Shown: piece by piece, positions 184 to 64,000 of the stretch | How positions within the stretch are numbered: position 1 is the first letter of the stretch | How the letters are laid out: the number at the start of each line of letters is the position of its first letter | Source of the DNA: Nannobrachium achirus | Lineage: Eukaryota; Chordata; Actinopteri; Myctophiformes; Myctophidae | Direction: 5' to 3' | Assembly (NCBI GenBank): GCA_963921795.1 | Contig: OY997654.1 | Coordinates: 1,381,867 to 1,445,866 of the forward strand | DNA length: 64,000 nt | The notes under the pieces: model-generated | The model's database searches: none | The model's input: only the letters and a program-made list of their open reading frames with translations | Told to the model about the DNA's origin: nothing | Position numbers and translations under genes: made by a program

Positions 184-256
184 CAGCAGATCTACCGGTA
201 CAAGCTCGCAAAGTGTTGCGATGTGAAGTGGTGTGAGCTTGTAGATTGTCTATTTT
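184..256. repeat. Degenerate copy of the shared hairpin
   Basis: Contains AGCAGATCTAC, then ACAAGCTCGCA, and on the other arm GTGAGCTTGTAGATTGTCTATTTT, so both arms of the window-wide hairpin are recognisable but separated by a diverged centre. No host element boundary is clear. Confidence 0.55.
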
Positions 257-389
257 GTTGTAGGGGTTAGCAAAGGGGCCACCAGCCAACTAAGTATATA
301 GTGGTTAGGCATTTGAGTTTACTGAAAACTACAGATTATATTTCTGTGGTGGCGGTCTGGGGTTGATTGAGGCTACCTCGTGTGATACA

Positions 390-644
390 GTAAATTGTCA
401 CTGTCTGGCAGAAACCTTGTATCCAAGTTTCAAATGTGTATGTTTTGTTTTGTTAAAGTAAAGCCCTGCTTCATCATACAAGACTGTTGCACAAAACTAG
501 TGAAAATAGCCGATCTGCAAGCACACAACGCCTCGCGACGCGAGGCGTTGTGTGCTTGCACATCGTCTATTTTCACTATTCTAGATCATTTTTAAAATGA
601 TAAATACAAAAGACATACAAGGTTTCCACCCGACAACAACGATA
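390..644. mobile_element. TA-flanked MITE 'D' with central hairpin
   Basis: Both ends carry the D terminal inverted repeat (GTCGGGTGGAAACCTTGTAT-like; left end somewhat diverged, 'CTGTCTGGCAGAAACC'; right end the complement of TCGTTGTTGTCGGGTGG next to TA). The shared hairpin sits at 500-577, with GCACAC/GTGTGC arm variant and centre CGCCTCGCGACGCGAGGCG. The two arms outside the hairpin are different sequences, so this is a MITE with a hairpin centre, not a simple foldback. No transposase is encoded. Confidence 0.7.
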
Positions 645-1423
645 TCCTATAGGGTTTTGAGACAACCTCTCCGGGCATGATCACCGGCCGCGGAAGAGAA
701 AAGCGGGGCAGGTGTTGCAAAATTGAACAGCTGCGACAGTAAATAAGGTTTATGTGGCACGGGGAGACCAGTCACTCATCGGTCTCCACGGCAACTGTGG
801 GCGTTGTTGATCCCTTGGGGAGGAAGAGGTGTCTCTTTCCTTCACGCCGCCGCGCTATAACTCTTCGCCGCACCAAATGGCCCCCACATCCAATTATAAT
901 CACAGTTGTTAAACAAAGACTTCCTTAATGAACAACACAGGCCATTGATGCTCAATTGAATCAAGACAAAATGATGCTACGGCGGTGCAAAGGGAGAAAG
1001 ACTCGCGCGGGCGGGCTAATGAAACTTCAGGAGCTTAAGATTTGGTTGCTGTTCAGGCAGAAACGGAAACCGAGTGAACTGGGTTCAAGTGAGCTTAAAG
1101 CAGTCAAGCTGATACTTAAACAAAATGTTCTTCACTGCCAGGAGAGGAGCTTGCTGGGGAGCCAGCAAACTAGCTTCACTTGGGGCTGTTTGCCAAGGCA
1201 CTGGATTTGGACCAGAATCACCTCCCTGCTATGAATCTGGAACAGCAATTATGTGTTGTGTTTGCTGTGTTATAGAGTATCACTCTCACAATATTCTTTT
1301 CGGGGGGGAAAATATAAACAATGTTGTCAATGACAGAGACGCTGCGATTGAGTTTTTTCTTCTGATCAGTGTGACACAACAGACTCCGACATTCTTCTAC
1401 CTTCACAAGATATTGTGAAGTTG
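645..1423. other. Unassigned sequence
   Basis: No gene, RNA or recognised repeat. Short open frames here lack family motifs and splice context. Confidence 0.5.
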
Positions 1424-1810
1424 TTTAGTTTTAGTCAACTGAAGAGTATTAGTTTTAATCAAATTTTAGTCGACTAAATATCATAAGATTTCAGGCGACT
1501 AAATCTACAGTTGATTTAGTCAACTGAAAATGCATTTTGGCAGGCCTTGATGGCATCGTAATGACTGATTTTACACTTGGCTGCGACGCGTTGTGAGCTT
1601 GTAGATCGGCTATTTTCAGCACGCAACACCTGAGAGCAACCAAACATAAAATGACCCTAACGTTTTAGTCTAGTTTTTATTTTGTTGACGAAATTGTCAG
1701 TAGGTATATTTTGTCTTAGTTTAAGTCATCATAGTTTAGTTTCTATTTCGTTCTGTCAGTGAACAAAAAAAAGAAAATCGTTGTAGTTTTAGTCAACGGA
1801 ATCAACACTG
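1424..1810 (-). mobile_element. hAT-like MITE, family C (copy 1)
   Basis: Family C is recognised by ends related to CAGTGTTGATTTTGTCGAC and by internal runs of ACTAAA/TTTAGTC. This copy reads in reverse, ending ATCAACACTG at 1810. It keeps only the right arm of the shared hairpin (1581-1620: GCGACGCGTTGTGAGC, then GTAGATCGGCTATTTTCAGC). Related copies are at 21738, 62037 and 63532. Left end is diverged. Confidence 0.65.
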
Positions 1811-2031
1811 GCCCTATTATGATCCAGGTCTTATGCCTTATGCCTTAACTTCTTTGCCTTTTTTTTACTATTTTGTTTTAGTTTTTTAAATATTTCAAAT
1901 AGCTGATCTGTAAGTTCACAACGTGCAGATGTAGATCAGCATTTGAAGTATTTAAAAATGTTTTCCAAAATAGTGAAAAAAAGGTAAAGAAGTTAAGGCA
2001 TAAGGCATAAGACCTGGATCATAATAGGGCC
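1811..2031. mobile_element. Palindromic MITE with long inverted repeats
   Basis: Arms of about 70 bp (from GGCCCTATTATGATCC at the left to GGATCATAATAGGGCC at the right) are nearly perfect complements, including the doubled TTATGCCTTATGCC. The centre (1894-1948) is a weak version of the shared hairpin: AATAGCTGATCTGTAAG and GTAGATCAGCATTT. Family not named. Confidence 0.75.
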
Positions 2032-2090
2032 CTGATTGTTATAAGAAATGCATTAATTCATAGCCTGGTACATGAGTAGTCAAAATGCGT

Positions 2091-3412: not shown

Positions 3413-3929
3413 GCTCTTACCCGTTCAAAGATATGAGCTCCGAAATGATGTGCAGTGTGTGGGTTATGGGATGTGCACTGTGCACACAGTATGAGGGATG
3501 GAAAGTAACTTTAACTGGTGCTTGCATGCTAATATGTAGGAGCATCAATGTAAGAAATACCCGTTCCATTTAACGGCTACAGAGATACTGTGTACCGATC
3601 TGCATGATTTTTGGACAACATCTGTAACAGGGCCAGAACTCATTCATTAAATCCAAAGTGCTTTTTTGGGGGAATCTGCATTGACTGTCAAATCAATGCC
3701 AGTGCAGAGCTGAGGAAACTCCCCGCGGGGCAGAGCAACCAGCGTTCCTCTTGTTTCCCTGTTGATCTCTCCCTGTTTGACATGTCCCGTTTCCTTCCCT
3801 GACTCCTTCAAAGGCCAGTCCCTGACAGGTTCATTTGAGCCATTTCTTTAAGGGAGACATGAATGTAGTTGTTTGCAGGGGTGTCGCACCAAATGCTGGG
3901 CCCTGGGTAGTGGGTACAAGGATTCACTG
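3413..3929. other. Unassigned sequence
   Basis: No gene or repeat recognised. Confidence 0.5.
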
Positions 3930-4347
3930 GATTATTTTGTGCTTTAACTATTGAAAAATAGCAGATATACAAGCTCACAGCGCGGCACCGAGTGCCGCGC
4001 TGCGAGCTTGTAGATCTGCTAATTTTGAAATATTTAAAATCCTTCTAAGGTTTTATGAAAAACCTACGTTTCTATGTCAGTGGTGCTCAAACCTTGTGAA
4101 GGACCACCAAAATGATATGTATTTGGCCATGGACCCCCGTCTCAAAATATTTAGTTCCAGGGACCCCCCCAGAAGCAAAATTGGAGTTTCAAATGTCCGC
4201 TTAAAAAAATACACAAAGATTTGCACACATTTTCACGACTTTCCAAAAATAGCAGATCTGCAAGCTCTCAGCGCGGCACTCGGTGCCACGCTGTGAGCTT
4301 GCATATCTGCTATTTTTCAGCAGCTAAAGTATACAATAATTAAGGCC
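3930..4347. mobile_element. Family A element, degraded copy
   Basis: Carries the two inverted hairpins typical of family A (3955-4027 and 4245-4317) and the internal GTCAGTGGTGCTCAAACC...GGACCCCC segment, but the terminal CCCATTTAG sequences are lost. The left hairpin reads GATATAC...GTAGATC and the right one GATCTGC...GCATATC, so they are reverse complements of each other. Confidence 0.75.
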
Positions 4348-4711
4348 CCTCCACCTTGGGCCCTAGTAACTCAGTCCCACTTTTCCCCCCCTTGTGACGC
4401 CCCTGTTTGTTTGAATGGAGTCCCTTTGGACCAGCGAGTGGTGGTGGCATGGCTTCCTGCACATCGGGGCCAGTTCACGGTTGCTATGCGTGGAAGCATT
4501 GTGGCGTCTCCCCCGTCATCTGACCTCCTCGTCCAAGATGAATTAGCCATTGGACGAGCGCGTGCTTTTTTTCCGACCGCATTCACTGTGAAAGGAATAG
4601 ACGCCAGGGGAACGTGTCAAAGTGAAGCGAGCCTTGTAACCTTTTCTGATGTAAATGGCGTGATTTTACTGGAGGACCCAAGTGGGAGCGCTGTGTGTGC
4701 ATGTGCATTAT
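4348..4711. other. Unassigned sequence
   Basis: Contains an open frame on the plus strand from about 4411, but it has no recognisable domain, and it runs into the repeat at 4712. Not called as a gene. Confidence 0.45.
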
Positions 4712-5580
4712 TAGGGCATTCACGAATAGTGATTTTTTTAGTATTCGAATTATTCAACCTCAAAGTATTCGAATAGTCGAATATTCGAGAGGCGAACATT
4801 GTGAAAATAGCCAATCTACATGCTCACAACGCCTCGCAACAAGGCGTTGTGAGCATGTAGATCAGCTATTTTCACAATATGTATCTGCGGAACAGAGTCA
4901 CATGTAATGCCTACAATTCCAAGTGCTTGTCAGGGTGGGGGTCCCCAGTTCTAATATGTTTATTTTGGGTGTCACAGCCTAAAAAGGTTAGAGAACCCCT
5001 GGTATAGAGCATTAACAAATTCATCCACCAGGGGCATTGACAACTCATTCTTATGACTTCCTATCTAGCCAAGCTTTATAAACTATATGTATTTTTAAAG
5101 AGAAAACAATAAAAAATAATAATAATAATAAATAAGCGAATATTCTGCTTCGGTGAACAATGTCGAATAGTGACTTTGATATTCGAATAGTCGAACGCGA
5201 GGAGTTGTGAGCATGTAGATCAGCTATTTTCACAATATTTATCTGCGGAACAGAGTCACATTAAATGTAATACCTTCAATTCCAAGTTCTTTTCAGGGTG
5301 GGGGTCCCCAGTTCAAATACGTTTAGTTTGGGGGTCACGGCCTAAAAAGGTTTGAGAACCCCTGGTATAGAGCATTAACAAATTCATCCACCAGGGGCAT
5401 TGACAACTCATTCTTATGAATACCTATCTAGCCAAGCCTTATAAACTATATATATTTTTAAAGAGAAAACAATAAAAAAAAAAAATCTAAATAAGCGAAT
5501 ATTCTACTTCGGTGAACAATGTTGAATCGTGACTTTGATATTCGAATAGTCGAATATTCGAATATTCGGTGAATGCCCTA
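4712..5580 (+). mobile_element. hAT-like MITE, family B, compound copy
   Basis: Family B has ends TAGGGCATTCACGAATA and GGTGAATGCCCTA and several internal TATTCGAA/TTCGAATA palindromes. Here two partial copies are joined near 5195: the first has a complete hairpin (4798-4878, ACATGC/GCATGT variant), the second only the right arm (5196-5238). The inner GGTTCTCAAACC-related segment and the tail from ATTAACAAATTCATCC are present twice. Likely product of unequal recombination between two copies. Confidence 0.75.
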
Positions 5581-6294: not shown

Positions 6295-6298
6295 TTAA

Positions 6299-6843
6299 CC
6301 CATTTAGAATTATTGTATGCTTTAGCTATTGAAAAATAGCAGATATACAAGCTCACAGCGCGGCACCGAGTGCCGCGCTGCGGGCTTGTAGATCTGCTAT
6401 TTTTGAAAAATCGTGAAAATTCGAATTTTGACCCGATTCTATAAGTGTGTCTTTTGAGTCCTTCTAAGATTTTTTTGAAAAACATATGTTTCTATGTTAG
6501 CAATCTGGCCAGCCATCGTCAAAGAAAAGGTCCTTTTCACTTATCTGGAGCTCAGTTAGTCTGTTCTTGAGAGACTACTATGTCAGTGGTTCTCAAACCT
6601 TTTCATGTGAAGGACCCCCAAAATGATATGTATTTGGTCACGGACCCGCATCTCAAAATATTTAGTTCCAGGGACCACCCAGAAGCAAAATTTTAGATAC
6701 AAACGTTCGCACACATTTTCACAACTTTTTCAAAAATTGCAGATCTACAAGCTCGCGGCGTGGCACTCGGTGCCGTGCTGTGAGTTTGTATATCTGCTAT
6801 TTTTCACTGGTTAAAGCATTCAATAATTCTAGGCCTAAATGGG
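6299..6843. mobile_element. Family A element with TTAA duplication
   Basis: 545 bp starting CCCATTTAGAAT and ending CCTAAATGGG, flanked on both sides by TTAA (6295-6298 and 6844-6847), the duplication typical of piggyBac-like elements. Each terminal inverted repeat contains a hairpin (6330-6405 and 6732-6806), the right one being the reverse complement of the left. No open frame of interest, so non-autonomous. Confidence 0.85.
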
Positions 6844-7496: not shown

Positions 7497-7500
7497 TTAA

Positions 7501-8097
7501 CCCATTTAGAACGGGTACACATTTCGTGTATCATTATTTTATGCTTTAACTATTGAAACATAGCAGATATACAAGCTCACAGCGTGGCACCGAGTGCCGC
7601 GCTGCGAGCTTGTAGATCTGCTATTTTTGAAAAATCATGAAAATTAGAATTTTGACCCAATTCCATAAGTGTCTTTTGAATCCTTCTAAGGTTTTTTTTG
7701 AAAAAGCTATGTTTCTATGTCAGCAATCTGGCCAGCCATCGTCAAAGAAAAGGTCCTTTTCACTTAACTGGAGCTCAGTTAGTCTGTTCTTGAGAGACTA
7801 CTATGTCAGTGGTTCTCAAACCTTTTCATGTGAAGGACCCCCAAATTGATATTTATTTGGCCACGGACCCCCATCTCAAAATATCTAGTTCCAGGGACCA
7901 CCCCCAGAAGCAAAATTTGAGTTACAAACGTTCGCTTTGAAAATACATATATTCAAAGATTTGCACACATTTTCATGACTTTTTCAAAAATAGCAGATCT
8001 ACAAGCTTGCAGCGCGGCACTCGGTGCCGCGCTGTGAGCTTGTATATCTGCTATTTTTCACTGGTTAAAGCATTCAATAATTCTAGGCCTAAATGGG
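7501..8097. mobile_element. Family A element, near-complete
   Basis: Starts CCCATTTAGAACGG, ends CCTAAATGGG; TTAA at 7497-7500 on the left and TTTAA on the right. Hairpins at 7553-7629 and 7986-8059 in inverted orientation, both with the GGCACCGAGTGCC/GGCACTCGGTGCC centre. The interior is about 90% alike to the copies at 6299, 10173, 32995 and 54049 by eye. Confidence 0.85.
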
Positions 8098-8102
8098 TTT
8101 AA

Positions 8103-8576: not shown

Positions 8577-9134
8577 CAGGGGTTCCCAAACTTTTTTGTC
8601 TCAGGGCACCCCATGAATATTGTTTTAATCCGAGGCACCCCTACATTATATTTGTCACTCCCAGCACCTTATATTTATGGCATATTGTCGTTGTCGGGTG
8701 GAAACCTTGTATGTCCAAAACCGTTCGTTTTGTATTTATCATCTATAAAATGTACCAAACTAGTGAAAACAGCAGATCTACAAGCACACAGTGCTTGTAG
8801 ATCGGCTGTTTTCACTAGTTTTGTGCGACAGTCTTGTATGATGAAGCAGGGCTTTGCTTTACCAAAAGACGTACACATTTGAAACTTGGAAATACAAGGT
8901 TTCTGCCCGACAGTGACGGTATTTTAGTGACTATGATGCGAGGAAAACGTTGAGATAATAGCCATTTTGGTTAGAACTGACTGAAAATAACTTTGTACTT
9001 CAAGTTTAAAATGATACTAAATATTTTTTCAAGTGAATTCCAAATATTATCAAATGATCTCGCGGAGTCGCGGCACCCCTGGACTGCCGTCGCGGCACCC
9101 CAGGGTGCCCCATCACCCACTTCGAAAACCCCTG
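8577..9134 (+). mobile_element. hAT-like element interrupted by MITE 'D'
   Basis: Ends CAGGGGTTCCCAAAC and AAAACCCCTG, flanked by GTTTAGAC (8569-8576) and GTTTAAAC (9135-9142), a 7/8 match for an 8-bp hAT duplication. The element at 36935-37225 is an uninterrupted relative in reverse orientation. Against it, this copy carries an extra 235 bp (8685-8919). Confidence 0.85.
8685..8919. mobile_element. MITE 'D' nested in hAT, TA duplication
   Basis: The uninterrupted relative reads (reverse complement) GCATATTTTAGC at this point, whereas here CA-TA precedes and TA-TTTTAG follows the insert, giving a TA target duplication as in Tc1/mariner-like transposition. Termini are TTGTCGTTGTCGGGTGGAAA and the complement of CCGTCACTGTCGGGCAGAAA. 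The hairpin (8759-8818) has lost its GC centre and keeps ACTAGTGAAAACAGCAGATC-type arms. This is the best proof in the window that a hairpin carrier moved. Confidence 0.85.
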
Positions 9135-9142
9135 GTTTAAAC

Positions 9143-10168
9143 AAATGCAGTTTTGACGTTTACTTTAGGCCTATATCCTATAGTTTCTTTGAAGCACTAC
9201 AATGTTTTCTACTTACTCTCTACTTATATGACCGTCATTTGTTGAGTTAATGCCATGCGATCTGATCCCTCACTCGAGCCGCGAGTGGCCTCTATATGAG
9301 CATCTGCTAAATGCCTAAATTGTAAATTATGATTGTAAATTGTATTGTAGCATATAAAACCATACTCCATCCATCAAACCATTTGCACTTAAACTGACTT
9401 CCTCTCCACACACACTCAGCAATAAAGCCACCAAACACAGGGCCTAATTAGGCCAAAAGTCGTATAAATGCATGGCCTAAAACCTTCCCATTGTTGAAGC
9501 CGATGGCAAGTATGCTATGCATGCCATTTCATGAAACGAGTTTAATCAAAGTACAGATGCATATTCACAAAATTGATACAGCATTCCCCTTTGTTTTAAC
9601 AATGGATTCTTTTCAGAATTGCGAGCATTTTATATCTTATAAAGCCATGGTTGCAGCCAGCGCGTGCCAGGGTGCCAACATCTTTGCCAACAAGCCCATG
9701 ATTCTGTAAACCCTGACAAGAGCATCAAGGGAAAGGGGTCTTGATCTATTATTTCACACGATCATCTTCATTCCAAGCCGTAACTGTATGACTAATTGGT
9801 TGGTGTATGTTCTCATTTCAAACACAGGCAGTTGGTGTTGACTTTGCGCAGCAGGGGAGCGACACAGCAGTGATGTCAAGGAGGTGGCCTAAGAACTGTG
9901 TAGAAGCTACTATCACAATGAAGAACAGCCATCTTGTATATATAGCTCTGAGCACATCAAAGTAGCGTCAGAGTGGGTGATGAAACGGCAGAGAAGAATA
10001 ACTGAATAACTCATAAAATGTATGTTCTGGCTCCAGTAACAGTACCACTGAAGCCCTTCTGGGCGCTTGTAGATTTTTTTTTTTCACTTTTTCATTTTAG
10101 AAACAGGGTTTAAGTGGTTAATTTATCCAACTTTGCAGTGATATATCTCAGCTTTTTGTGATATTGTA
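9143..10168. other. Mostly unassigned; SINE-like tail
   Basis: At about 9290-9345 the words GAGCATCTGCTAAATGCCTA followed by TGTAAATT repeats resemble the tail shared by many teleost SINE/LINE 3' ends. The rest shows no gene or repeat I recognise. Confidence 0.4.
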
Positions 10169-10172: not shown

Positions 10173-10757
10173 CCCATTTAGAACGGATACACATTATGGT
10201 GTATCATTATTTTATGCTTTAACTACTGAAAAAATAGCAGATATACAAGCTCAAAGCGCGGCACCGAGTGCCACGCTGCGAGCTTGTAGATCTGCTATTT
10301 TTGAAAAATCGTGAAAATTAGAATTTTGACCTTATTCTATAAGTGTCTTTTGAATCCTTCTAAGACTTTTTGAAAAAAAACCTATGTTTCTGTCAGCAAT
10401 CTGGCTAGCCATCGTCAAAGAAAAGGTCCTTTTCACTTAACTGGAGCTCAGTTAGTCTGTTCTTGAGAGACTACCATGTCAGTGGTTCTCAAACCTTTTC
10501 CTGTGAAGGACCCCCAAAATGATATGTATTTGGCCACGGACCCCCATCTCAAAATATCTAGTTCCAGGGACCAACCAGAAGCAAAATTTTAGTTACAAAC
10601 GTTCGCTTTGAAAATACATATAGTCAAAAGATTTTCACGACTTTTTCAAAAATAGCAGATCTACAAGCTCGCAGCGCGGCATTCGGTGCCGCGCTGCGAG
10701 CTTGTATATCTGATATGTTTCACTGGTTAAAGCATTCAATAATTCTAGGCCCTAAAT
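10173..10757. mobile_element. Family A element
   Basis: Starts CCCATTTAGAACGG after TTAA (10169-10172); right end decayed to CCCTAAAT followed by TTAA. Hairpins at 10227-10304 and 10645-10722, inverted relative to each other. Interior shared with the other family A copies. Confidence 0.8.
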
Positions 10758-10981
10758 TTAATACCCAAGAAGAGAGAAATCATCTTTGTGCCTCCACAGG
10801 GAGGACAGAGGTTAAGGTCAGTGAGAGGGTGGTGTCCCTGAAGCAAAACCTAATTCAATATCTTGCCCAAGGTCACAACAGAGAGGGTCACACGGATCAC
10901 ATGTGGGACTTTGTGATTACAGCACATCCCCTCTGACTGACTCACACACACAGTGTGATTCTTACAATGCTTAGTGGGACC

Positions 10982-11070: not shown

Positions 11071-11313
11071 GTCACAAAAGAGAAACCTTCTTGCTCAAAC
11101 ACTGTCTTTACCTGACAGCAATAATAAACCGTCAAAAAGGCAATTTGTCAATCTCCAGATAACAACTTCATCAACAATATGATCTCACAAGGGTCTGACT
11201 AATATGATCCAGAAATGCTACCTCTTCACTGGGTTTAATCTTGGTGTAGGTGCTCTGGGACCCTTCTTGTTTCACTCTACACCATATTTGCCATAAAGTT
11301 AGCTGAACATAGC

Positions 11314-11799
11314 TGTACGGAATTTTACCGAAATAGGGCTATTTCTTCCTATCTTGGGAGTGTGAGTATCCCTCCGTAAGGGAGGCTTGGTGGTCAGTGG
11401 TTTAGGCATGAAACCACTCGACGGTTATGTCCTACAATAAATGATTCACAAACAAAGTGACGTGTCTTAAGTCTTTATGCCTTGCACGCACGCATTCACA
11501 CACAAAACACACACACGAATAAACCCTGAGTTAAACTGGAGTAAGAAAGAAGTAAAATAAATTGCCAATCTGCGCATAAGTAGCATGAATGCTATCCTTT
11601 GTTCATGTTGACTGTAGGTCAGTTGTCAGGTTATTTTACAGTTCCCATCCACCGTCCTCCAAACCTTTCTTCACACTGAATTACAAAGTATTGACGCATG
11701 CGCATAAGCCCCTGTAGAACGTGTATGCATGACTTCTTTTAGACGCTAGATGGTAGCAACTCCCCATGCATTATCTCAACCCTGGGCGAAAGTTCCACA
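11314..11799 (-). repeat. BEL 3' LTR
   Basis: 486 bp, beginning TGTACGGAATTTTACC and ending GTTCCACA on the plus strand, so TG...CA in both orientations. I compared it with 19493-19978 through its whole length and saw no difference. It contains an AATAAA-like word in both orientations, so no poly(A) site is assigned. Confidence 0.95.
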
Positions 11800-11809
11800 C
11801 CTCCCACTT
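11800..11809 (-). promoter_or_regulatory. Polypurine tract of BEL element
   Basis: Reads AAGTGGGAGG on the minus strand, immediately upstream of the 3' LTR, the position where plus-strand DNA synthesis is primed in LTR elements. Confidence 0.75.
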
Positions 11810-12191
11810 GGGCTGTGTAGTAAACAAACAGGCCACACATACTGTAGCAAATATGCATAATATGAGAATATGAGAAAGTAACAAAAGTAACTAGTTAGCT
11901 GTAACTTCAATAAGTCCTAACTATGAAAATATACAGAAAAATATGAACAAATTTGTCCACGCAGGCACTTGAAATGTTTTGCACACAAAAGATTAAGGTG
12001 GTTAAATATAGCTGAAATGAAGTAACCTTAACCCTACTTAAGGAGGTCGGCACCACCGCCTAACTCCTAACTGAGTGTTGGATTTGCCCTCTAACCACTC
12101 AGCGCCCTCAGGGATACCCACTAACTACAAAGTCAAAGCACACAAAAGTATTTTTTTTTCTTCTGGGTACCCTTCATGAGGACTTATCAAC
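11810..12191 (-). other. BEL 3' untranslated region
   Basis: About 380 bp between the stop codon of the polyprotein and the purine tract. No further frame of interest. Confidence 0.7.
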
Positions 12192-30104: not shown

Positions 30105-30871
30105 TAGGGATGGGACGATATGAACATTTTATATCATGATTATTGTGACAAAATAAATCATGATTTACGATATTACCGCGATAATCGAAATCCATTATCC
30201 TGGGGCGGAACATTTGCCAAAAAATAGCCGATCTACAAGCTCACAACGCGTCGCGCTGCGACACGTTGTGAGCTTTTTTAATAAAATGAATTAATTAATC
30301 GGAGGCCTCAACGAAGCCCCGGTCTAATTTTGGAACCAGGCCGCCTACCGCGCTCTCTTTCCACCGGCCCGTAATCGGGTAACGCCGCCACACCGCGCCG
30401 CCTAATCCAATACATTCTCAGATCTTTAGAGACCTTTTTCTCTGAACTGTGTTCCCAGGGCAGCGACAAAGTTTTTTTTGCGGCTAAATAGCCTCAGATC
30501 GGGCTTATAAAAAAAAAAGAGCCGATAGCTAACTCTTGGCTCTCCTCCTCCGGTCCACGGTCATAACACTGCATGCAGTGAAATCCCAATCCACTTCTGC
30601 CAGGGTACCCGGATGATACTATGAAGCCTTAGGGAGAAATGCCTCTTGTGGCCTTGGCACGAAGTGAGTTAAGTATGTATATTATAAGTACCTTTTACCA
30701 ATTATAGGGTTTAAATGGTACTGGATATGCAGCTCGGCAAATACAAGGTGAATTGATCCCAGTGCATGATGGAGGACGATATTGCGATAAATTAAATCTC
30801 CACGATACGATTATCGTGAGTGCTTTTTATCATCACGATAAACAATAATATCTCTTATCGTCCCATCCCTA
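30105..30871. mobile_element. hAT-like element with TAGGGATGGGACGATA ends
   Basis: Inverted ends TAGGGATGGGACGATA and TATCGTCCCATCCCTA. Flanks CACACGCT and AAGACGCT match at 6 of 8. It splits the repeat at 29955/30872. A hairpin lies at 30218-30275, with the right arm truncated after GTTGTGAGCTT. Centre variant ACGCGTCGCGCTGCGACACGT. Confidence 0.8.
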
Positions 30872-38928: not shown

Positions 38929-38985
38929 TTGGTGCGGTGACCCGGATCCGGGCTTCTCCGTAGGAGGAGGTCAAAGGGGGGTGAG

Positions 38986-39794: not shown

Positions 39795-39945
39795 TAGTGA
39801 AAACAGCCGATCTACAAGCTCACAACGCGGCGCGAAGCGTCGCGTTGTGAGCTTGTAGATCTGCTGTTTTCACTAGTCGGGGTCCCGGGCAAACGTTTAA
39901 TTTCTCGTTTGGGTCTGGAGATGAAAGGTTTGGGAACCACTGATC
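39795..39945 (-). mobile_element. hAT-like end with perfect shared hairpin
   Basis: Hairpin 39795-39876 is complete (TAGTGAAAACAGCCGATCTA with centre CAACGCGGCGCGAAGCGTCGCGTTG). It is followed by the complement of CAGTGGTTCCCAAACC, a hAT-type terminus. The opposite end was not found. Confidence 0.7.
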
Positions 39946-46027: not shown

Positions 46028-46172
46028 ACATACAGTACTTGTAAGGGTCAATGTAGTCCTCCCAAAATGAACCCAGAGAGTTCATGGACCCCACTTTGAG
46101 AACCACTGGTCTAAATGTTCTGTTACTCCTTTTTCTTTTAGCTTTAGTTACCTTGTAGGTGGTTACTGTTAA

Positions 46173-46639: not shown

Positions 46640-46838
46640 AGTAACTTGAAAAATAAGCATAAAAACTATGAAAAATAATCGTGATAAGATTGTGTATCGT
46701 GATACAGCTTAGAAACATATCGTGATATTGTATTTTTTCCATATCGCCCACCCCTAGTCCATCAGTAAAAATAGGCTTTTTCAAATGTGTACTGCATTTA
46801 AAAGAAAGCAACAATCAACAACAATGTCATCTTCAGCG
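46640..46838. repeat. Arm 1 of 200-bp inverted duplication
   Basis: Reverse complement of 47652-47850, with about 800 bp between. The similarity covers the CCATATCGCCCACCCCTAG end of the 45843 element and continues into flanking sequence (AAAATAGGCTTTTTCAAATG), so it is a segmental duplication, not just two copies of one element. Confidence 0.85.
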
Positions 46839-47315
46839 TTCAGCCTACCACATGTGGGGGGCAATAAATGAATTATAAAGCAACAGGGTGGGCTGGACTA
46901 CAACATATAGAAAGGTTGGGCCGTGTTTGTGTTGGTTTGTGCAAACAACCAACTAGACAAGTCAGTCACTACACTTCACTCACCTAGAGAAGACAATTAA
47001 TCTCCCAACATGTGTTAAACTAAAAAAAAAAAAAAAAAAACATCTGCAACCATTCCAAAGTCTTTAGCGTGGTCATATTGGGTCAGGGACATGATTGGTT
47101 TCCAAAACAGAGGAGGCGTAGCTTTGTTAGAAGCTGTTCTCTCCATCGTTCTCGCAACCAGGCACGTGCACACATAGACATCAAAGGGGGCTTGAGCCCC
47201 TGCCCTTTTACCCGCCGGTAAAAAGTGCCCTCTCCAGACCATGAATGTAGTTTTTACTATGGTGAAAGAAATACAAATACCCTCTTCCATGCCATACCTG
47301 AAGGCAGCAATAAAG
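46839..47315. other. Unassigned; (A)n at 47021-47040
   Basis: No gene recognised. Confidence 0.5.
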
Positions 47316-47484
47316 AGAATTAGCCGGTAGCTATGCCTCTCCCTAAAAGCTTTTGTCCAATGCTAGCTTAGAATAACTTCCTGCTTGCCAAGGTTTGCCT
47401 TGGCAACAGCCTTGGCAAGCTGCTGGTTGCTAAGCTAGCATTGGACAAAAGCTTTTAGGGGAGGGGCATAGCTACTGGCTAATT
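47316..47484. mobile_element. Palindromic MITE
   Basis: AATTAGCCGGTAGCTATGCC at the left and GGGCATAGCTACTGGCTAATT at the right, with arms of about 70 bp including AAAAGCTTTTGTCCAATGCT and centre TTGCCAAGG/CCTTGGCAA. Family unknown. Confidence 0.85.
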
Positions 47485-47610
47485 GCCTTGTCCAAACTCT
47501 CCTGAATTGAATGTAGCATCTCATGTTGAAAGAATTGCCCTCTCTGTGTAGAAATCCATGCTGTACGTCACATTGCCTTTTTATGCTTAGTTTAGTGTGG
47601 TATCAAGTAG

Positions 47611-47653
47611 TACTGAAAATAGCCGACCTCCAAGCTCACAACACGTCGTGCCG
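47611..47653. repeat. Left half of shared hairpin
   Basis: CTGAAAATAGCCGACCTCC then AAGCTCACAACACGTCGTG; the right arm is replaced by arm 2 of the inverted duplication, which begins here. Confidence 0.7.
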
Positions 47654-47850
47654 AAGATGACATTGTTGTTCATTGTTGCTTTCTTTTAAATGCAGTACAC
47701 ATTTGAAAAAGCCTATTTTTACTGATGGACTAGGGGTGGGTGATATGGAAAAATACAATATCACGATATGTTTCCAAGCTGTATCATGATACACAATCGT
47801 ATCACGATTATTTTTCATGTTGGTTTTTATGCTTATTTTTCAAGTTTTTC
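47652..47850. repeat. Arm 2 of 200-bp inverted duplication
   Basis: See 46640-46838. The left boundary is the centre of a shared hairpin. Confidence 0.85.
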
Positions 47851-47870
47851 AATATTTTCACCAAAAGGCC

Positions 47871-48222
47871 CTTTTAGAAATGTCAGCCCCTGCCTCTCTA
47901 ACATTCTCTGCACGTCCCTGCTCGCAACTACCTTGAATTTAGAAGTCCCCGGTCCACCAGCATAGGTGGAGACGGCTGATCATGTGGCATCACATTCACT
48001 AAACTAACAACCAACAGAAACCTACTGTCTGCTGGAGGAGGGTGGCGGGGTCGCACAATGTTCCAGGGACGTGCTGGGCCCCTGATTCAGCCCGGGAAAA
48101 AGAGTTGGAGAGGCCCTCATTGCGCGCTATAGAGAGAGAGCTCTCTCTATAGCGTTGCTGCTACTTTGTCATTTCAGATCATGACAAGTGACAAGCAAGT
48201 GGGCCAATTACATGAGTTATAT
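47871..48222. other. Unassigned sequence
   Basis: Short palindrome AGAGAGAGCTCTCTCT at about 48132. No gene. Confidence 0.5.
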
Positions 48223-48223: not shown

Positions 48224-48481
48224 TTGTTGTTGTCGGGTGGAAACCTTGTATGTCCAAAACCGTTTGTTTTGTATTTATCATTTTAAAAATTATTTAAACT
48301 AGTGAAAACAGCCGATCCACAAGCACACAACGCCTCGCACTGCGAGGTGTTGTGTGCTTGTAGATCTGCTGTTTTCACTACTTTTGTGCGACGGCCTTGT
48401 ATGATGAAGCAGGGCTTTACTTTGCGCAAAAAATTACAAATTTGAAACTTGAGACACAACGTTTCTGCCTGACAGTGACGA
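48224..48481. mobile_element. MITE 'D', complete with hairpin
   Basis: GTTGTTGTCGGGTGGAAACC at the left and GTTTCTGCCTGACAGTGACG at the right. Hairpin 48301-48378 is complete with the D-specific GCACAC/GTGTGC pair and centre CGCCTCGCACTGCGAGGTG. Confidence 0.85.
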
Positions 48482-49148: not shown

Positions 49149-49669
49149 CAGGGGCGTCAATTGGGTATGGCAGGGGTATGCAGCTACCATACCCTGGGTC
49201 CAGGGGGGAAAATAAAAGTTACTTCTAAATATAAATCCATGAATGTCTCTTTGTCTATCTGTGCTGGTTATTATGTTGTTAAATTACAGTAAAATAACTA
49301 CAAATGAGAAATGTAACAAAATGGTCACTTTAACAAGGTATTACAATTATATTCTCCACACTTGTATTCTCCCCATCTTGACAGAATAGTATATTCCCAG
49401 GTTCCGCAGGTCAGCTGCACAGGTGCAATGCATTATTGTTAATTGTGGCACATTTACCAACATGCCAAGTTTAGCTGCACTTGAACAACTGTTCCAGGCT
49501 GCCATATCCAGCCCAAGAAACCATAGAAACGGGGGAAAAAATATAATGTACTTCTTAAAACTAATGTATCATGCCTGTTGCTAAGGTATGGCAACATGAC
49601 TGGCTTCGCGCGCCTGCAAGACACCAGTCATGTTGCCATACCTTAGCTTTTTCTGAACTGAGGCCACTG
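49149..49669 (+). mobile_element. hAT-like family G, complete
   Basis: CAGGGGCGTCAATTGGG to GAGGCCACTG, 521 bp, with perfect 8-bp duplication TCACAGAT (49141-49148, 49670-49677). Carries the G-specific hairpin near its right end with a short loop. Confidence 0.92.
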
Positions 49670-54044: not shown

Positions 54045-54048
54045 TTAA

Positions 54049-54610
54049 CCCAGCCAGAACGGGTACACTATATTGTGTATCATTATTTTATGCTTAACCT
54101 ATTGAAAAATAGCAGATATACAAGCTCACAGTGCGAGCGCTGCGAGCTTGTAGATCTGCTATTTTTGAAAAATCGTGAAAATTAGAATTTTGACCCGATT
54201 CTAAGTGTTTTTTGAATCCTTCTAAGGTTTTTTGAAAAACCTATGTTTCTATGTCAGCAATCTGGCCAGCCATTGTCAAAGAAAAGGTCCTTTTCACTTA
54301 ACTGGAGCTCAGTTAGTCTGTTCTTGAGAGACTTCTATGTCAGTGGTTCTCAAACCTTTTCATGTGTAGGACCCCCCAAAAAATATGTATTTGGCCACGG
54401 ACCCCCATCTCAAAATATTTAGGTCCAGGGACCACCCAGAAGCAACATTTGAGTTACAAACGTTCGCTTTGAAAATACACATATTCAAAGATTTGCAGAC
54501 ATTTTCACGACTTTTTCAAAAAATAGCAGATCTACAAGCTCTAGCTGTGAGCTTGTATATCTGCTATTTTTCACTGGTTAAAGCGTTCAATAATTCTAGG
54601 CCTGAGTGGG
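54049..54610. mobile_element. Family A element with shortened hairpins
   Basis: Starts CCCAGCCAGAACGGGTACA, ends CCTGAGTGGG; TTAA at 54045-54048 and 54613-54616. Both hairpins (54102-54168, 54516-54572) have lost different amounts of GC centre: left keeps ACAGTGCGAGCGCTGC, right only CTCTAGCTGTGAG. Arms are kept. Confidence 0.85.
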
Positions 54611-54616
54611 TTTTAA

Positions 54617-56037: not shown

Positions 56038-56488
56038 CAGGGGTCTTCAACAGGGGGTCCAGGACCCCCAGGGGGTCCTCAGAGTTACTACAGGGGGTCC
56101 TCCAAATCTTTGAGTGTTAGAAACCTTTATTATATTAACCACTTGAACCCTAGAGTCCATATTCTGAGAACTTTAGCCGAAAATAGCCGATCTACAAGCT
56201 CACAACGCCTCGCAGCGCGAGGCGTTGTGAGCTTGTAGATCGGCTATTTTCGGCAAAGAGGTTTGGTGTAGAGGGGAAAAAGAGCAAACTAAGAGTAAAA
56301 GGTCAAGTCCATTAAGTATTGGCGATTCAAGTGGTTAAATATCTGAAAACACAAATTGACATGAATCCAAAATACAAACAATGTCAAACAATGAAACTAT
56401 ATGGAATCTATGAAAAGGTTGTGGGGGTCCATGCTTCATCTCTCTCTCAACTAAGGGGTCCTTGGCCTGAAAACGTTGAAGACCCCTG
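56038..56488. mobile_element. hAT-like family F with perfect hairpin
   Basis: CAGGGGTCTTCAACAGGGGG to GTTGAAGACCCCTG, 451 bp, perfect 8-bp duplication TTTTAGAC (56030-56037, 56489-56496). The hairpin at 56176-56254 is a perfect palindrome through GCCGAAAATAGCCGATCTAC and the centre CGCCTCGCAGCGCGAGGCG. Confidence 0.93.
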
Positions 56489-57266: not shown

Positions 57267-57730
57267 GAAGGGCATTCACAAATATAGATTTTTAGTATTC
57301 GAATTATTCAACCTCAAAGTATTCGAATTGTCGAATATTCGACAGGACTGGCCAAACTGTCAAATAGTAAGTACAAGAGGCGAACATTGTGAAAATAGCC
57401 GATCTCTGCGTTGTGAGGAACCGAGTCACATGAAATGTAATAACTACAATTCCAAGACAAGTGCTTGTCAGGGTGGGGGTCCCCAGTTCAAATGTGTTTA
57501 TTTTGGGGGTCACGGCCTAAAAAGGTCTGAGAACCCCTGGTATCAGAGCATTAACAAATTCATCCACCAGGGGCATTGACAACTCATTCTTATGACTTCC
57601 TATCTAGCCAAGCTTTATAAACTATATATTTTTTAAAGAAAAAAAAAAAGAAACGAATATTCGACTTCAGTGAACAACGTCGAATAGTGACTTTGATATT
57701 CGAATATTCTAATATTTGGTGAATGCCCTA
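57267..57730 (+). mobile_element. hAT-like MITE, family B
   Basis: From AAGGGCATTCAC to GGTGAATGCCCTA. CTTCACATAGTG occurs on both sides (57255-57266, 57731-57742), 12 identical bases, longer than the usual 8. The hairpin is almost deleted (57387-57417). Confidence 0.85.
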
Positions 57731-58170: not shown

Positions 58171-58636
58171 AGCCAAGTGTAATGTGGGCAAAGTGCTCCC
58201 GTCCCTCAGAGGAACACATGACCCAACTGTCAGATGCTAAAATGCCAAGGGCTTGATTGACAGTCTTGTGTTAAACTGCATGTTTGAACTCATTAGCACA
58301 TTAAGAGCCTCGGTACTTCCAGAAGCCTGAGTCGCTGTTTATTAATGTTGAATGAATTCGGACACTCTTGGCGCTTCAGCAAGTAGAGATGGGATTTATT
58401 ATGGCTTTTTGAAGTGAGACGGATCTCTAGGATCCGTTCCTTTCCAAGAGCCGTTCGAAAAGACTAATTTTAGTTACTAGTTGCTTTGTAGATTTAGATT
58501 ATGATTACAAATCACTTTAACCCTATACATTTCCGCCATTTGAGAATAGCCGATCTACAAGCTCACAATGCGTCGCGTTGCGACGCATTGTGAGCTTGTA
58601 GATCTGCTATGTTCAAATACTTTTTCTACATTTTAG

Positions 58637-58950
58637 GCCATGGCTACACAGAGCTGGATATTTCTGAAGCTAGACATTTTTTTGTGCTGTTGGGGCTCGC
58701 AGCCACATGAAGCTGGATATTTCGGCCGCGAAGCTGGATATTTTTTAAACCAGATAAATAAGTGAAGACATTGAAAAATATCCGATTCACTGGATCCGTG
58801 TAGACAGGGAACCCAGATATCTCTGAAGATTTTACTGTGTGTGTGCTTGTTAGACCTAGATATCTTTGTCGTGTGGACCTAGATATTTTTCTATGTGGAT
58901 ATCTGAAAAACCTGGATATATGAAATATCCAGCTCCATGTAGCCATGGCC
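58637..58950. mobile_element. Palindromic MITE nested in hAT
   Basis: GGCCATGGCTACACAGAGCT at the left and AGCTCCATGTAGCCATGGCC at the right; GGATAT(T)T words repeat inside. 314 bp, non-coding. Confidence 0.8.
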
Positions 58951-59012
58951 TTATTCATTGGAAAACCTGTGAAAGTAACATTCTGCATGACGACTACTTT
59001 CTACCATTGGTA

Positions 59013-59518
59013 TTTTAAAAGGATCCCTGGCTAATACGACAAATATGCCTTAATACATTATAATTGTCCTCTACAATGTAAAATTAAAAACACCTTAAAT
59101 ATTTTATTTCTTCTAGAAATAGCTAATCTTTCACTCAATAGGGGAAATGCCCGTCGCAAGTTGATGATGTCATAAATGTAATGCGTGATCTATCCCTATG
59201 GAATTTATGGCATGCATGTGCAAATAAAAACAAACTTAATTCTTCCTATGGTTAATATGAGCATCAAATCAATATTTCAAATGTATTTGTGTTTTTTTTT
59301 CTTTTTTGCAAATGCATGCCATAAGTTCCATAGGTATAGACCACACATGACATTTATGACATCATCAACTTGCGACAGGCATTTCCCCTATTGACTGAAA
59401 GATTAGCTATTTCTAGAAGAAATACAATAATTGAGGTGTTTTTAATTTTACATTGTAGTTATAGAGGACAATTATAATGCATTAAGGCATATGTCGTATT
59501 AGCCAGGGATTATTTTAA
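59013..59518. mobile_element. ~505-bp foldback element nested in hAT
   Basis: Arms of about 190-200 bp (TGGCTAATACGACAAATATG with its complement; GGGGAAATGCCCGTCGCAAG with its complement). Centre is a T-rich run. Arms differ at several sites, so it is not very recent. Confidence 0.88.
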
Positions 59519-59763
59519 GTACACTGTGATACCAATACTTTTGTACTTTTACTCAACGAACATTTTCCTTTTACTTGTAACAAATGTTTCTACATTTGGA
59601 TTATTGATACTTTTACTTAAGTAAAAATGGACTCCCCCTCATAAAAAAAAGGGGGGGAACGGCTCCCTACTGCGAACCGGATCCCATCGTTCATTTCAAA
59701 GAGCCGTTAAAAAGACTCGATTCGTTCGCAAACGTCCCATCTCTACTCAGCAGGGCACTCATA

Positions 59764-59955
59764 TCGCCGTTGTCGGGTGAAACCTTGTATGTCCAAAACC
59801 GTTGGTTTTGTATTTATCATTTTAAAAACTATCTTACAACAGGGAAAATTTCAGATCTACAAACACACGGCTGCTTGTAGATCTGCTATTTCCACTAGTT
59901 TTGTGCGACAGTCTTGCATGATGAAGCGGGGCTTTGCTTTACTTTTCACATTTTA
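59764..59955. mobile_element. MITE 'D', 3'-truncated
   Basis: TA at 59762-59763, then TCGCCGTTGTCGGGTG. Hairpin 59841-59898 lacks its GC centre (ACAAACACACGGCTGCTTGT). Right terminus missing. Confidence 0.7.
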
Positions 59956-60207: not shown

Positions 60208-61228
60208 CAGTGGCGTCAGTTCAGCAAAAGCTATGGTATGGCAAAGATGGGAGTCCTCATGGAAAAGAGGCATTACATTTTGGATAACACGGTTCTATTG
60301 TGAAAATAGCAGATCTACATGCTAGATCTGCTATTTTCACAATGTCTGAAAAAACCCCGACTTTTGGCAGTTTTTTAAACAGGTTTCTACGGTTTCTTGG
60401 GCTGGATATGGCAGCCTGGAACGGTTGTTCAAGTGCAGCTAAACTTAGCATGTTAGTAAACGTGCCACAATTAACTCTCCTACTGCCAGATTATTTATTT
60501 ATTTATTGGGTCTGGTGCCATCAAAAAGCGGCTTACCTTTGCGACGTTATAGTAGATAGACAGACAGACATTTTTTTTTTTTTTTTTGTTTTTTTTTGAT
60601 TGTGCAATAGTGCACTTTGGTCTGCCAGGCAGCAGAGGGCGGCCTCATGCGAGAATGAATGTGAATTGTCCTGCTATGTGTTGCCGTACATTCAGAGCAG
60701 TCACTGGCTACAGAGCCTCCGGGCCAGAGGAAATCAACAAGGAAGTGAATTGTTCTCCGTTGATCTAACGCATAATGGATTTTTTACACCATCACAGCGG
60801 AAAATGTGTTTACAGTAAACGGCCGCGCGACCCCTCATCAGCTTACAGTCATCAGACGAACGAACCGAACGAGCGCCGTATTGGCATCGAGGTTCTGTAA
60901 AAAATGGGGCGAGCGTTATCGTTCAAAGCGTGGGGAGAGTTAACAATAATACATTGCACCTGTACAGCTGACCTGCGGAACCTGGGAATATACCATTTTG
61001 TCAAGATGGGGAGAATACAAGTGTGGAGAATATAATTATAATACCTTGTTAAACCATTTTGTTAAATTTTGTATTTGTAGTTATTTTACTCTAATTTAAC
61101 AACATAATAACCAGCGCAGATAGACAAAGAGACATTCATGGATTTATATTTAAAAGTCACTTTTATTTTCCCGCCTGACCCAGGGTATGGCAGCTGCATA
61201 CCCCTGCCATACCCAATTGACGCCCCTA
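60208..61228 (-). mobile_element. hAT-like family G, reversed, interrupted
   Basis: From CAGTGGCGTCAGTTCAGC to AATTGACGCCCCTA, with perfect 8-bp duplication CCACAGTG (60200-60207, 61229-61236). In place of the G-specific hairpin it carries the shared hairpin core (60298-60343, centre lost, ACATGC arm). It is interrupted by a TTAA element. Confidence 0.9.
60475..60939. mobile_element. TTAA element nested in family G, copy 2
   Basis: Flanked by TTAA (60471-60474, 60940-60943). Other family G copies read (reverse complement) GCCACAATTAACAATAATGC at this point, so the empty site has a single TTAA. CTCTCCTACTGCCAGATTA at the left end, paralogous to 46173-46636. Confidence 0.95.
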
Positions 61229-61236: not shown

Positions 61237-62024
61237 GTGTGTATACACACGCGTGCAGCCCTACACACACACGTGCGCACACATGCGCACGCATCAGTCA
61301 AACGTCAGCGCCGGCGCTTTCTTCACAACAGCCCGTAATTCCAATCTCGATCGTTTCAACCACTGAGACCTTAACATCAGTCAAGTCCACCCCACTTCTA
61401 TTCTCACATCTGTCACATCAAAGCGTCTTGTTGAATGGTGTCGGAGTCTCAGAGAAACAAACAACCAGAAACAAAACCAACAACAACACAAAAAACTAAC
61501 TTTCAAGCCTATCCCTGCTAGGAAGGTGTGTGAGGAGCGGGGGGACGTGCGAACACGACTGCGTTCGTCGTGCCAATTCAATTTAGCGTCAGAAGACGAC
61601 ATGACAACATACCAATGTCATACCATGCACTGCAGACAGTAACCTTTATCCGTTATTTATTTGTTTTGTCGTATGGAGGAAACTTGCATTTCCTTTTAAG
61701 TTTACGCCACAACTGTCACCATAATGCATCTTTTATAAATGTGATTGACGTGTGCTGTTATCATTCTCAGTGGCATTTTAAAGAGGGCTCGTGGCAGCCT
61801 CGATGCGCTCTTCATTCTTAACTAATAAGGACAGCGAGTGGCTGGAAGCTGTCGCCTTGTTGTTCCCTTTCTGACATTGATACATTTCATTCCCAACTGA
61901 AAATACTGGGCTCGTCAGTTATTAGTCACAATAAAAAAAAAAACCCTTGCGCCAACATGAACTCTGATGAAGACCAGAGCAAGTCATTGTTTCTCTATGT
62001 AAAATGCAAAAAGACAATTAGCAA
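61237..62024. other. Unassigned sequence
   Basis: No gene or repeat recognised. Confidence 0.5.
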
Positions 62025-62036
62025 TTCCCTACCTAC

Positions 62037-62471
62037 CAGTGTTGATTTTGTCGACCAAAACTATGACGAAAAATGTTTGTCGACTGTGTTTTTTTCACTG
62101 ACGAAAACGAAATAAAAACTAAATAATAAAAACTACGCTGTGATGACTAAAAATAAGACTAAATATATTGACAATTTCGTCAAACAAAATAAAAACTAGA
62201 CTAAAACCTGGGGGAAGGGACTAGTGGAGAAGAGAGTCATTTTATGTTTGGTTGCTCTAAGGTGTTGCGTGCTGAAAATAGCAATAGTAGATCTGCTATT
62301 TTCAGCACGCAACCAAGTGTAAACCAATCATTATGATACCATCAAGGCCTGCCAAAATACATTTCAGTTGACTAAATCAACTGTAGATTTAGTCGCCTAA
62401 AATCATATAATATTTAGTAGACTAAAATGCGACTAAAACTAAATCAATATTTGCTGTCAAAAACAACACTG
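62037..62471 (+). mobile_element. hAT-like MITE, family C (copy 3)
   Basis: CAGTGTTGATTTTGTCGAC to AAACAACACTG. TTCCCTAC follows the right end and occurs 4 bases before the left end (TTCCCTACCTAC). The hairpin is reduced to GTGCTGAAAATAGC ... GATCTGCTATTTTCAGCAC (62265-62313). Confidence 0.85.
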
Positions 62472-62565
62472 TTCCCTACACGGTATTCCTTGGATTTAAT
62501 GAAGGAGACTTGTGGTTTATAATCTCACTTTAGAAGAAATTATTTTATTCCATAAATCGGGATTA

Positions 62566-62800
62566 CCTCAAGGTTCAAGGTTCAACTTTATTGTCAACAA
62601 TACCAATTTACAAGTAAAAGGGCAAGTGAAATTCATTGTGCGCAAGCAAAGCAGCAGCTACAGTCTTAAGAATACCACATTAAAATCAGTGTTAAGTTGC
62701 TAAAAGAACTAAGCTACTTAATATGTCAATATGTTAAGATCTAAAGTGCAAAAACTCGAGTGCAAAATGCAAAATTGTGCAAAGTGCAAAATTGTGCAAA
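62566..62800 (-). repeat. Probable L2-type LINE 3' end
   Basis: TTCAAGGTTCAACTTTATTG, TGAAATTCATTGTGCGC and AGTGCAAAATTGTGCAAA resemble the 3' tails of fish L2 LINEs. No coding part. Confidence 0.5.
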
Positions 62801-63531
62801 TGCCAATACATAAGCCAACAGACATATGGCCATATAGTCTGGGCCGTGTAATTCAGTGTTTGTTATTACCTTATGTCTAACTTAACTGCAACACACCATT
62901 CAAAGAGCACCTATATGTGACAACATACCTAAACATCCAGCAGCACTTCTAACCTCTCGTCTTGTGCTGTTGTGAGTTTCCTTGACATTCTGCATAGCAT
63001 CTCAAGCCACAGAGTCTAAAGCGGAGACAGTATCATGGCAACGAGTGCAGCTATGGAATGCAAAGTCACTGTACACAGGAAAGTCCTCAGTCAGCTCTAG
63101 GTGCACTTCTCATAGAAGTAAAACATGCTCATGTGTTGATGACGCTCCCGAGGATGATACATGCACAATTTAGTCCAGTGAGTGACAAGAAAATGCCCTT
63201 TAGCGTAATGAGAATTTGACAATAAATTTCAGTGTGACACACTTGGCCAAGCCAGGTTATAAATAATTAATCTGAAGAAGAAGCATGCCGGGCTGTCAGG
63301 AGAATGTCATGTCTCATTTGGCGGTGTTGATCGGCGGCGACCAGCCTGCAACATGCAGTTTATAAAGGCTCCTCTAGATATCCTGTTTCATGGTAATGAT
63401 TGATGTGTTCATGCTGTTGGGCTGAAGTGCATTCATGGTTTTACATACACTACGTCATATTGCATTGTGTCAGCAATACATTTGTATTTGTGTGTATTAT
63501 GACATTGGGCAAGAGCATTGTATTACCAAAT
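62801..63531. other. Unassigned sequence
   Basis: No gene or repeat recognised. Confidence 0.5.
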
Positions 63532-64000
63532 CAGTGTTGATTTTGTCGACTAAAACTATGACAAAAAATGTTTGACGACTGCCAGTGAAAAAAATCACTG
63601 ACAAAAACTAAATAAAAACTAAGCTGTGAGGACTAAAACTAAGACTAAATATATTGACAATTTCGTCAATAAAATAAAAACTAGACTAAAATGTTGGGGA
63701 GGGACTAGTGGAGAAGAGAGTCATTTTATGTTTGGTTGCTCTCCGGTGTTGCATGCTGAAAATAGCAGATCTACAAGCTCACAACGCGTTGCGCTGCGAC
63801 GCGTTGTGAGCTTGTAGATCTGCTATGTTCATCACACAACCAAGTGTAAACCAATCATTATGATGCCACCAAGGCCTGCCAAAATACATTTCAGTTGACT
63901 AAATCAACTGTAGATTTAGTCGCCTTAAACCTTATGATATGTAGTCGACTAAAACTAGACTAAAACAAAAACTTTACAGGTGACTAAATTATGACTAAAA
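63532..64000 (+). mobile_element. hAT-like MITE, family C (copy 4), cut by window edge
   Basis: Starts CAGTGTTGATTTTGTCGAC and runs off the end. The only family C copy here with a complete hairpin (63755-63831, centre CAACGCGTTGCGCTGCGACGCGTTG), showing the ancestral state from which copies 1-3 lost parts. Confidence 0.88.

Follow-up and report, generated by a model that had tools for sequence, protein, structure and literature searches.

Analysis of a 64,000-nt stretch of Nannobrachium achirus DNA (contig OY997654.1, within an assembly of 1,658,514,493 bases; the whole stretch is called the window below) revealed that one palindrome, the AATAGC hairpin, recurs inside host elements that carry three different target-site signatures: TTAA, TA/TAT and the 8-bp duplication of hAT transposons. 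Sharing of this module among host families is real, and in both transfers with a visible partner or donor more than the palindrome is shared. The explanation we prefer, though its chances seem to us about even, is that the hairpin is an old, superabundant palindromic passenger in the interiors of miniature inverted-repeat transposable elements (MITEs), exchanged by interior replacement and with its arms matched by template switching.

The module consists of arms of ~26-30 bp (AATAGC[A/C]GATCTACAAGCTCACAACG...), a GC-rich tip and a stem base specific to the family. Arms were searched as AATAGCNGATCTACAAGCTC and its reverse complement, with at most 5 substitutions for the window count and at most 4 in an extra sample of 28 stretches of 10 kb, placed at round, arbitrary coordinates on 20 contigs of 60-90 Mb each (268,273 unmasked bases read). 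The window contains 71 arm matches forming 43 loci, 28 of them two-armed and one (10063-10082) doubtful, close to the figure of about 40 given in an earlier note on this DNA. All 14 coordinates listed there hold a hairpin, 13 with both arms; at 30218-30275 the left arm and tip are kept, but the right arm has lost its outer half. Predicted DNA folding of four hairpins gave -36.5 to -52.5 kcal/mol (z -11 to -18). Markov shuffles yielded 1-2 arms against the 71 of the window, and at ≤3 substitutions five such shuffles yielded 0 against 62. The 28 stretches hold 111 loci, with at least one in 26 of them, a density of 0.414 per kb (bootstrap 0.316-0.516) or about one per 2.4 kb, which extrapolates to ~6.9 × 10^5 loci genome-wide (5.2-8.6 × 10^5) if the stretches are representative. 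Thirty shuffled arms gave a mean of 0.7 matches and a maximum of 4 in the same stretches, against 162 real arms, and one exact 32-base subtype occurs in 24,054 copies across the assembly, its reversed control in 0; a chance origin was rejected on the strength of the Markov shuffles, the shuffled arms and the reversed control. Pooling the window with the stretches at ≤4 substitutions gave 153 loci, 77 of them two-armed. A covariance model of the hairpin also matches unrelated palindromes, and its counts are therefore left out.

An Rfam search returned 32 matches with E ≤ 1, all of them short of the gathering score, and a known RNA family was rejected on this ground; the viral contigs searched gave 0 matches. 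Twelve loci in prokaryote genomes, with one exact match each against ~7.5 estimated by chance and no match there to the hairpin model at E ≤ 1, were likewise set aside, and the 13-mer GATCTACAAGCTC printed in one Theileria paper was taken as chance. Near-perfect palindromes of similar size and other sequence lie inside other elements at 45570-45659, 45948-46031 and 2211-2294, the first of these being a family E interior also found at 38123-38198 and 49577-49650. Four of 23 short hairpins found in the window are not of the AATAGC type, and long palindromic repeats without the AATAGC core occur at 23794-24418 (arms 294 nt) and 59071-59458 (arms 164 nt).

The hosts were grouped into families (Table 1; our letters and numbers A, B, 3, 5, 6, E, G and H31 could not be matched one-to-one with those of the earlier note). 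Elements of family A target TTAA and contain two hairpins in inverted orientation, and 16 of the family's 23 outer flanks end in TTAA next to the expected end (hand count); TTAA targets and inverted ends make A and G candidates for piggyBac- or Kolobok-like MITEs. For family B the target, TA or TAT, was read from a single paralogous site without the element (82% over 113 bp): a hAT copy near 36937-37235 lacks the B element seated in hAT 8577-9134; judged by its TA or TAT duplication, B is a putative TA-target MITE. Exact 8-bp duplications flank 56038-56488, 25620-25917, 60208-61228, 47159-47920 and L030:3998-4499 (L015, L017, L030 and similar names denote extra stretches outside the window, with coordinates after the colon counted within the stretch), and duplications matching at 7 of 8 bp flank 3876-4405, 8577-9134 and 27582-28009; together with their inverted ends, these would place the hosts among hAT-type MITEs. 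Family E is a hAT family with exact 8-bp duplications in all four complete window copies. At the family 5 element 62037-62471 the 8-bp repeat TTCCCTAC lies 4 bp beyond the left terminal repeat, and the duplication is uncertain. Some hosts are nested, with B inside the hATs at 8577 and 25620 and G inside the hAT at 56038, so that flanking element types outnumber direct hosts. The different transposition signatures described in the earlier note, TTAA (A, G), TA/TAT (B) and 8-bp hAT duplications, were thus recovered.

Comparing interiors revealed sharing across end types in two cases. A 411-bp interior with two hairpins (3931-4341) is common to TTAA family A and a hAT family; in a hand-picked set of 8 TTAA and 4 hAT elements its identity is 0.900 within TTAA (28 pairs), 0.858 within hAT (6) and 0.844 between them (32). 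The second case concerns family E. When nine E copies were aligned over the centre, eight were without the AATAGC hairpin, several having another palindrome there; the centre of E60 (60208-61228, which also contains a nested repeat resembling 46169-46626) is replaced, and 57 bp are 98.2% identical to an L015 element, ~30 bp of them outside the hairpin. The proposal that a module is exchanged between unrelated elements is therefore borne out by two cases of sharing across end types, while its other half, a hairpin moving alone, is not. Taken as a rule, the accompanying premise that MITEs share ends and not centres goes too far: the consulted parts of PMC6887750 and PMC5139131 describe interiors that were captured or shared.

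To what extent the hairpin moves by itself was judged from its edges and from sites lacking it. A consistent target-site duplication at the hairpin edges was sought in 12 contexts; six had none, and six had matches of 4-6 bp at varying offsets. When the flanks of the two-arm loci were joined and used as 304 queries, 33 matches elsewhere spanned the junction, and 19 of these had no intact arm. The 19 represent eight sites (hand count): six retain 9-17 nt of arm, and at one an A copy has undergone a larger deletion; L032:6632 was placed in neither group. No clean pre-insertion site for a bare hairpin was found in the window and the 28 stretches; the sample shows hairpin loss and no insertion of bare hairpins. 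All this speaks against a true mobile palindrome that inserts into transposons as a folded strand or palindromic element, as proposed for zebrafish Angel, an explanation we regard as rather unlikely. It would account for the very high copy number, the family-specific palindromic stem bases could be its palindromic targets, and a missing target duplication is no obstacle to it, as the Angel model requires none in the consulted part of PMC12628747. Hairpin H31 also favours it: H31 is of the same subtype as the B hairpins and within their diversity (distance 0.067), its flanks are unrelated to theirs, and the shared run of 7-10 bp ends near the stem end at 7-8 bp. Next to the arm, the flank family of H31 has TTTTCACTACTT as well, so that the shared stem base may be ancestral. 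Against such insertion, sequence past the stem is shared in both visible-partner cases, and a transfer between families 3 and E, at first seemingly stem-limited, was dropped when the flank was found to be shared. With no consistent edge duplication, no clean pre-insertion site and non-palindromic sequence shared alongside, the picture of a mobile palindrome parasitising transposons is not supported.

Whether host flanks align bears on common descent. The 153 pooled loci provided 229 usable outward flanks, 158 in 27 clusters of at least two and 71 single, and flank-based assignment placed 109 of the 153 loci in labelled groups and 44 in none. Among 351 pairs of consensus flanks 7 exceeded the 99% null against 3.5 expected, A end variants or family 3 with L015 making up three of the best four; within the window 14 of 534 flank comparisons were above threshold against 2.67 expected. 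Beyond nested copies, A, 3 and H31 have a hAT terminal motif in common on one side, a possible sign of distant kinship. The same palindrome thus occurs in families with different signatures, as claimed previously, and the flanks of most families do not align; for some hosts similarity does cross family boundaries, an outcome that the earlier note itself counted against its proposal, namely in the flank of 3, L015 and E60, the interior of TTAA-A and hAT-A, and the motif of A, 3 and H31. These last observations would be expected if all hosts descended from one hairpin-bearing ancestral element whose ends were replaced and whose flanks eroded beyond recognition: 3, L015 and E60 seem unrelated in the window, yet are linked by intermediates, and a conserved A/C difference between the arms (below) implies a single ancestral hairpin. 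We nevertheless consider such descent unlikely, as the consensus flanks of the other families are without excess similarity in the same 351 pairs, and different target signatures require at least an exchange of ends, which is already module sharing.

The two arms change in concert. The matched-change test used 16 full-length hairpins with 10 bp of flank from the 28 two-arm loci of the window (nine A, two B, two family 6, plus H31, H39 and H43). In these, 84.2% of cells pair, and two-sided changes occur in 19 of 43 pairs; they affect 64 cells against 24.4 ± 3.7 in shuffled sets, a value reached in 0 of 500 shuffles, and slid controls are all far lower, although changed cells are not events and related sequences inflate their count. 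Between family consensuses 10 core pairs differ on both sides, 4 by transversion. In the larger sample, seven families gave 6 derived bases in both arms against 0.19 expected if the arms were independent, two of the 6 being an identical base found in families 3 and L015, which are related. At one site both arms differ, but not in the same way. Stem-base extensions also vary by family (TTCACTAG, TTCACAAT, TTCAGCACGCAAC, TTTGGC and TTCGAT). Concerted arm changes, partly transversions, are what template switching predicts, and multi-base matched changes and stem extension are reported as its products in the consulted part of PMC8794818. At position 7 the two arms differ, A against C, in 5 of 7 family consensuses and 23 of 77 two-arm loci. 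The persistence of this difference indicates that arm correction is occasional and that whole hairpins are passed on, and that each family regrew its hairpin from one arm is, for the same reason, unlikely as a rule. Decay is frequent: tips are shortened in 28 of the 77 two-arm loci, and 76 of the 153 loci have a single arm. Enlarged tips with extra arm pieces, as tip slippage or template switching could give, were seen at L029:2113-2203 and L025:4561-4636.

Paired stem changes are also expected from selection on structure, for instance if the hairpin were a small-RNA precursor or protein-binding site maintained in each family. We find this highly improbable. The mismatches of the core show no wobble signature (G.T in 6 cells against A.C in 20 and others in 25, the choice of strand being arbitrary), no Rfam family was matched at gathering score, and the frequent shortening of tips and loss of arms counts against selection, as does the rate of arm change: slower arm evolution was tried and gave a mixed result, with arm identity above flank identity for families A, 5 and 6, the same for B and below it for 3.

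According to the reading that we prefer, passenger spread with interior replacement, the hairpin would sit in the interiors of many non-autonomous DNA transposons driven by different transposases, and its copies would increase mainly through transposition of the host family. A new family would acquire it by swapping its own interior or ends for those of an element that bears the hairpin; the likeliest occasion would be template-switching gap repair once an element has excised. Foldback template switching would occasionally copy one arm onto the other, giving matched arms and symmetric change at stem base and tip, and palindrome instability would delete tips and arms. Abundance, host signatures, sharing across end types (in two cases), concerted arm changes, shortened tips and single arms are observed; gap repair as the route, the direction of transfer and template switching as the cause of the matched arms are what we infer. 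Abortive gap repair is known in Ac/Ds, and Tol2 has internal inverted repeats.

Several observations weigh against this reading. The pair-type count does not exceed that of the shuffles (279 of 500), three families supply 13 of the 16 hairpins of the matched-change test, nine family-level differences are confined to one arm (five at position 7), family A is without a stem extension, and the arms are neither consistently slower nor faster than the flanks. A partner is visible in two sharing cases only, and other families may have gained the hairpin otherwise; the H31/B pair does look like a stem-limited transfer, and no element captured before and after a repair event was found in the window and the 28 stretches. 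A bolder variant would make the palindrome itself selfish, without transposase or ends: its foldback would be the preferred template-switch filler in repair of three transposon classes, and the same switching would maintain it. This fits the data, on the basis of the two cases with a visible partner, and we think it distinctly unlikely. If true, it would be a selfish element propagating via DNA repair and not transposition, and one with a copy number among the highest of any sequence in a vertebrate-like genome.

Table 1. Hairpin-bearing elements and related loci; element ends are approximate for family A and family B entries.
Feature	Position	Strand	Details
Family A element	6298..6840	+	TTAA at both ends; inverted hairpins 6335-6401, 6735-6801
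Family A copy	~7500-8100		Hairpins 7559-7625, 7989-8055
Family A copy	10173-10758		Hairpins 10233-10299, 10651-10717
Family A copy	32997-33594		Hairpins 33055-33121, 33477-33541; left end TATA instead of TTAA
Family A copy	54047-54614		Hairpins 54108-54163, 54522-54568
hAT with family A interior	3876..4405	+	Interior 3931-4341; hairpins 3957-4023, 4248-4314; duplication 7/8
Relatives of hAT 3876-4405	L030:3998-4499, L021:2159-2716, L030:1144-1667		Duplications 8/8 (CATGTATC), 7/8 and 5/8, respectively
Family B element	8684..8918	+	Tip-shortened hairpin 8768-8810; nested in hAT 8577-9134
Other B loci	505-571, 24744-24763, 25811-25830, 48307-48373, 59847-59890		
Family 3 element, hAT-like	4712..5580	+	TAGGGCATTC ends; hairpin 4806-4870, single arm 5209-5228
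Other family 3	27582-28009, 20640-20696, 34695-34714		Arm 27710-27729 in the first; second a hairpin, third an arm
Family 3 copy	57268-57730		Hairpin nearly lost
Family 5 element	62037..62471	-	CAGTGTTG ends; shortened hairpin near 62267-62310
Other family 5 members	1595-1614, 21825-21844, 63761-63827		
TTAA element G	56135..56338	+	Hairpin 56182-56248; nested in hAT 56038-56488, exact duplication TTTTAGAC
Damaged G relative			Hairpin 31278-31344
hAT family E copy (E60)	60208..61228	-	Exact duplication CCACAGTG; replaced centre; tip-shortened hairpin, arms 60305-60335
E copies without AATAGC hairpin	37677-38217, 45145-45678, 49149-49669		
hAT	47159..47920	+	Exact duplication CTCGCAAC; single arm 47618-47637
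Two-arm relatives of hAT 47159-47920	L015:2506-2557, L022:7701-7767		
hAT-like element	30105..30871	+	TAGGGATGGG ends; right-truncated hairpin from 30223; flanking 8-mers agree only 6/8
Flank relative of element 30105-30871	L017:1279-1345		
Element with TAGAGATGGG ends	58384..59745	+	Hairpin 58545-58611; no clear duplication
Palindromic MITE, 91-bp arms	1810..2031	.	Worn hairpin in centre, arm 1898-1917; related copy L022:834
Hairpin H31	39802..39868	.	B hairpins are nearest (distance 0.067), but the flank is unrelated; its flank family recurs in L023 and L027

Other features of the window touch hairpins or lie among them. A BEL/Pao-type long terminal repeat retrotransposon (11306-19985) sits inside a hairpin arm, the interrupted arm being 19978-19997 with ATAGC on either side; its terminal repeats (11306-11793 and 19485-19972) are near-identical, and it has an open frame at 12192-18491 (Pfam Peptidase_A17). 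An inverted duplication (46668-46837 and 47650-47818, 96-97% complementary, ~0.8 kb apart) has its inner right edge at the half hairpin with arm 47618-47637, as if the palindrome centre were the breakpoint. A minus-strand reverse transcriptase frame of non-LTR type (555 amino acids, 41417-43084, Pfam RVT_1) was also found, as were adjacent copies at 38765-38928 and 38985-39148 that are tRNA-like by eye, ARAGORN reporting no tRNA in the window.

Classification of MITE families goes by the ends, and here interiors cross between superfamilies; repeat libraries clustered on internal similarity would merge unrelated transposons in this genome. The ~5-9 × 10^5 loci are a large natural data set on the origin of non-autonomous transposon interiors and on palindrome upkeep in a large genome. 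A search of the open-licence literature, mostly at listing level, yielded no recognised description of the hairpin or of one palindrome across TTAA, TA and hAT MITEs; composite MITEs, modular MITE interiors and the foldback model are already published, as the consulted parts of PMC6887750, PMC5139131 and PMC12628747 show.

The consulted parts of these and two further papers allow comparison with five systems. Defective Galileo copies of Drosophila resemble the elements described here in their interior rearrangement, ascribed there to aborted gap repair, slippage or template switching, but Galileo is one superfamily, and a shared hairpin module is not described in that part of PMC4168063. The template-switch hairpins of PMC8794818 likewise have extended stems and multi-base changes that match between the arms; they belong to RNA genes, whereas the hairpin here lies in dispersed transposon interiors. 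Pearl-family mollusc MITEs are modular, with satellite-like shared cores, and are similar in their modular interior, in a palindrome near the repeat junction (DTC84) and in interior repeats related to satellites elsewhere; unlike here, their cores are tandem repeats, and no sharing across TTAA, TA and hAT is described in that part of PMC5139131. Palindromic Angel MITEs of zebrafish, for which PMC12628747 describes the model of Izsvak et al. of replication by foldback, resemble our hairpin as an abundant fish-genome palindrome with foldback and nascent-strand copying, insertion being aided by local homology, and our hairpin shares with them a predicted capacity to form a stem-loop; compared by description and not by sequence, it differs in lying inside transposons of three signatures, bare insertion not having been found. 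MER6, a composite Tc1/mariner MITE with a V-SINE domain (PMC6887750), is similar in that a module of foreign origin multiplies as a MITE passenger; there, one host family carries one inserted SINE (short interspersed element), whereas here one palindrome is carried by many families with different signatures.

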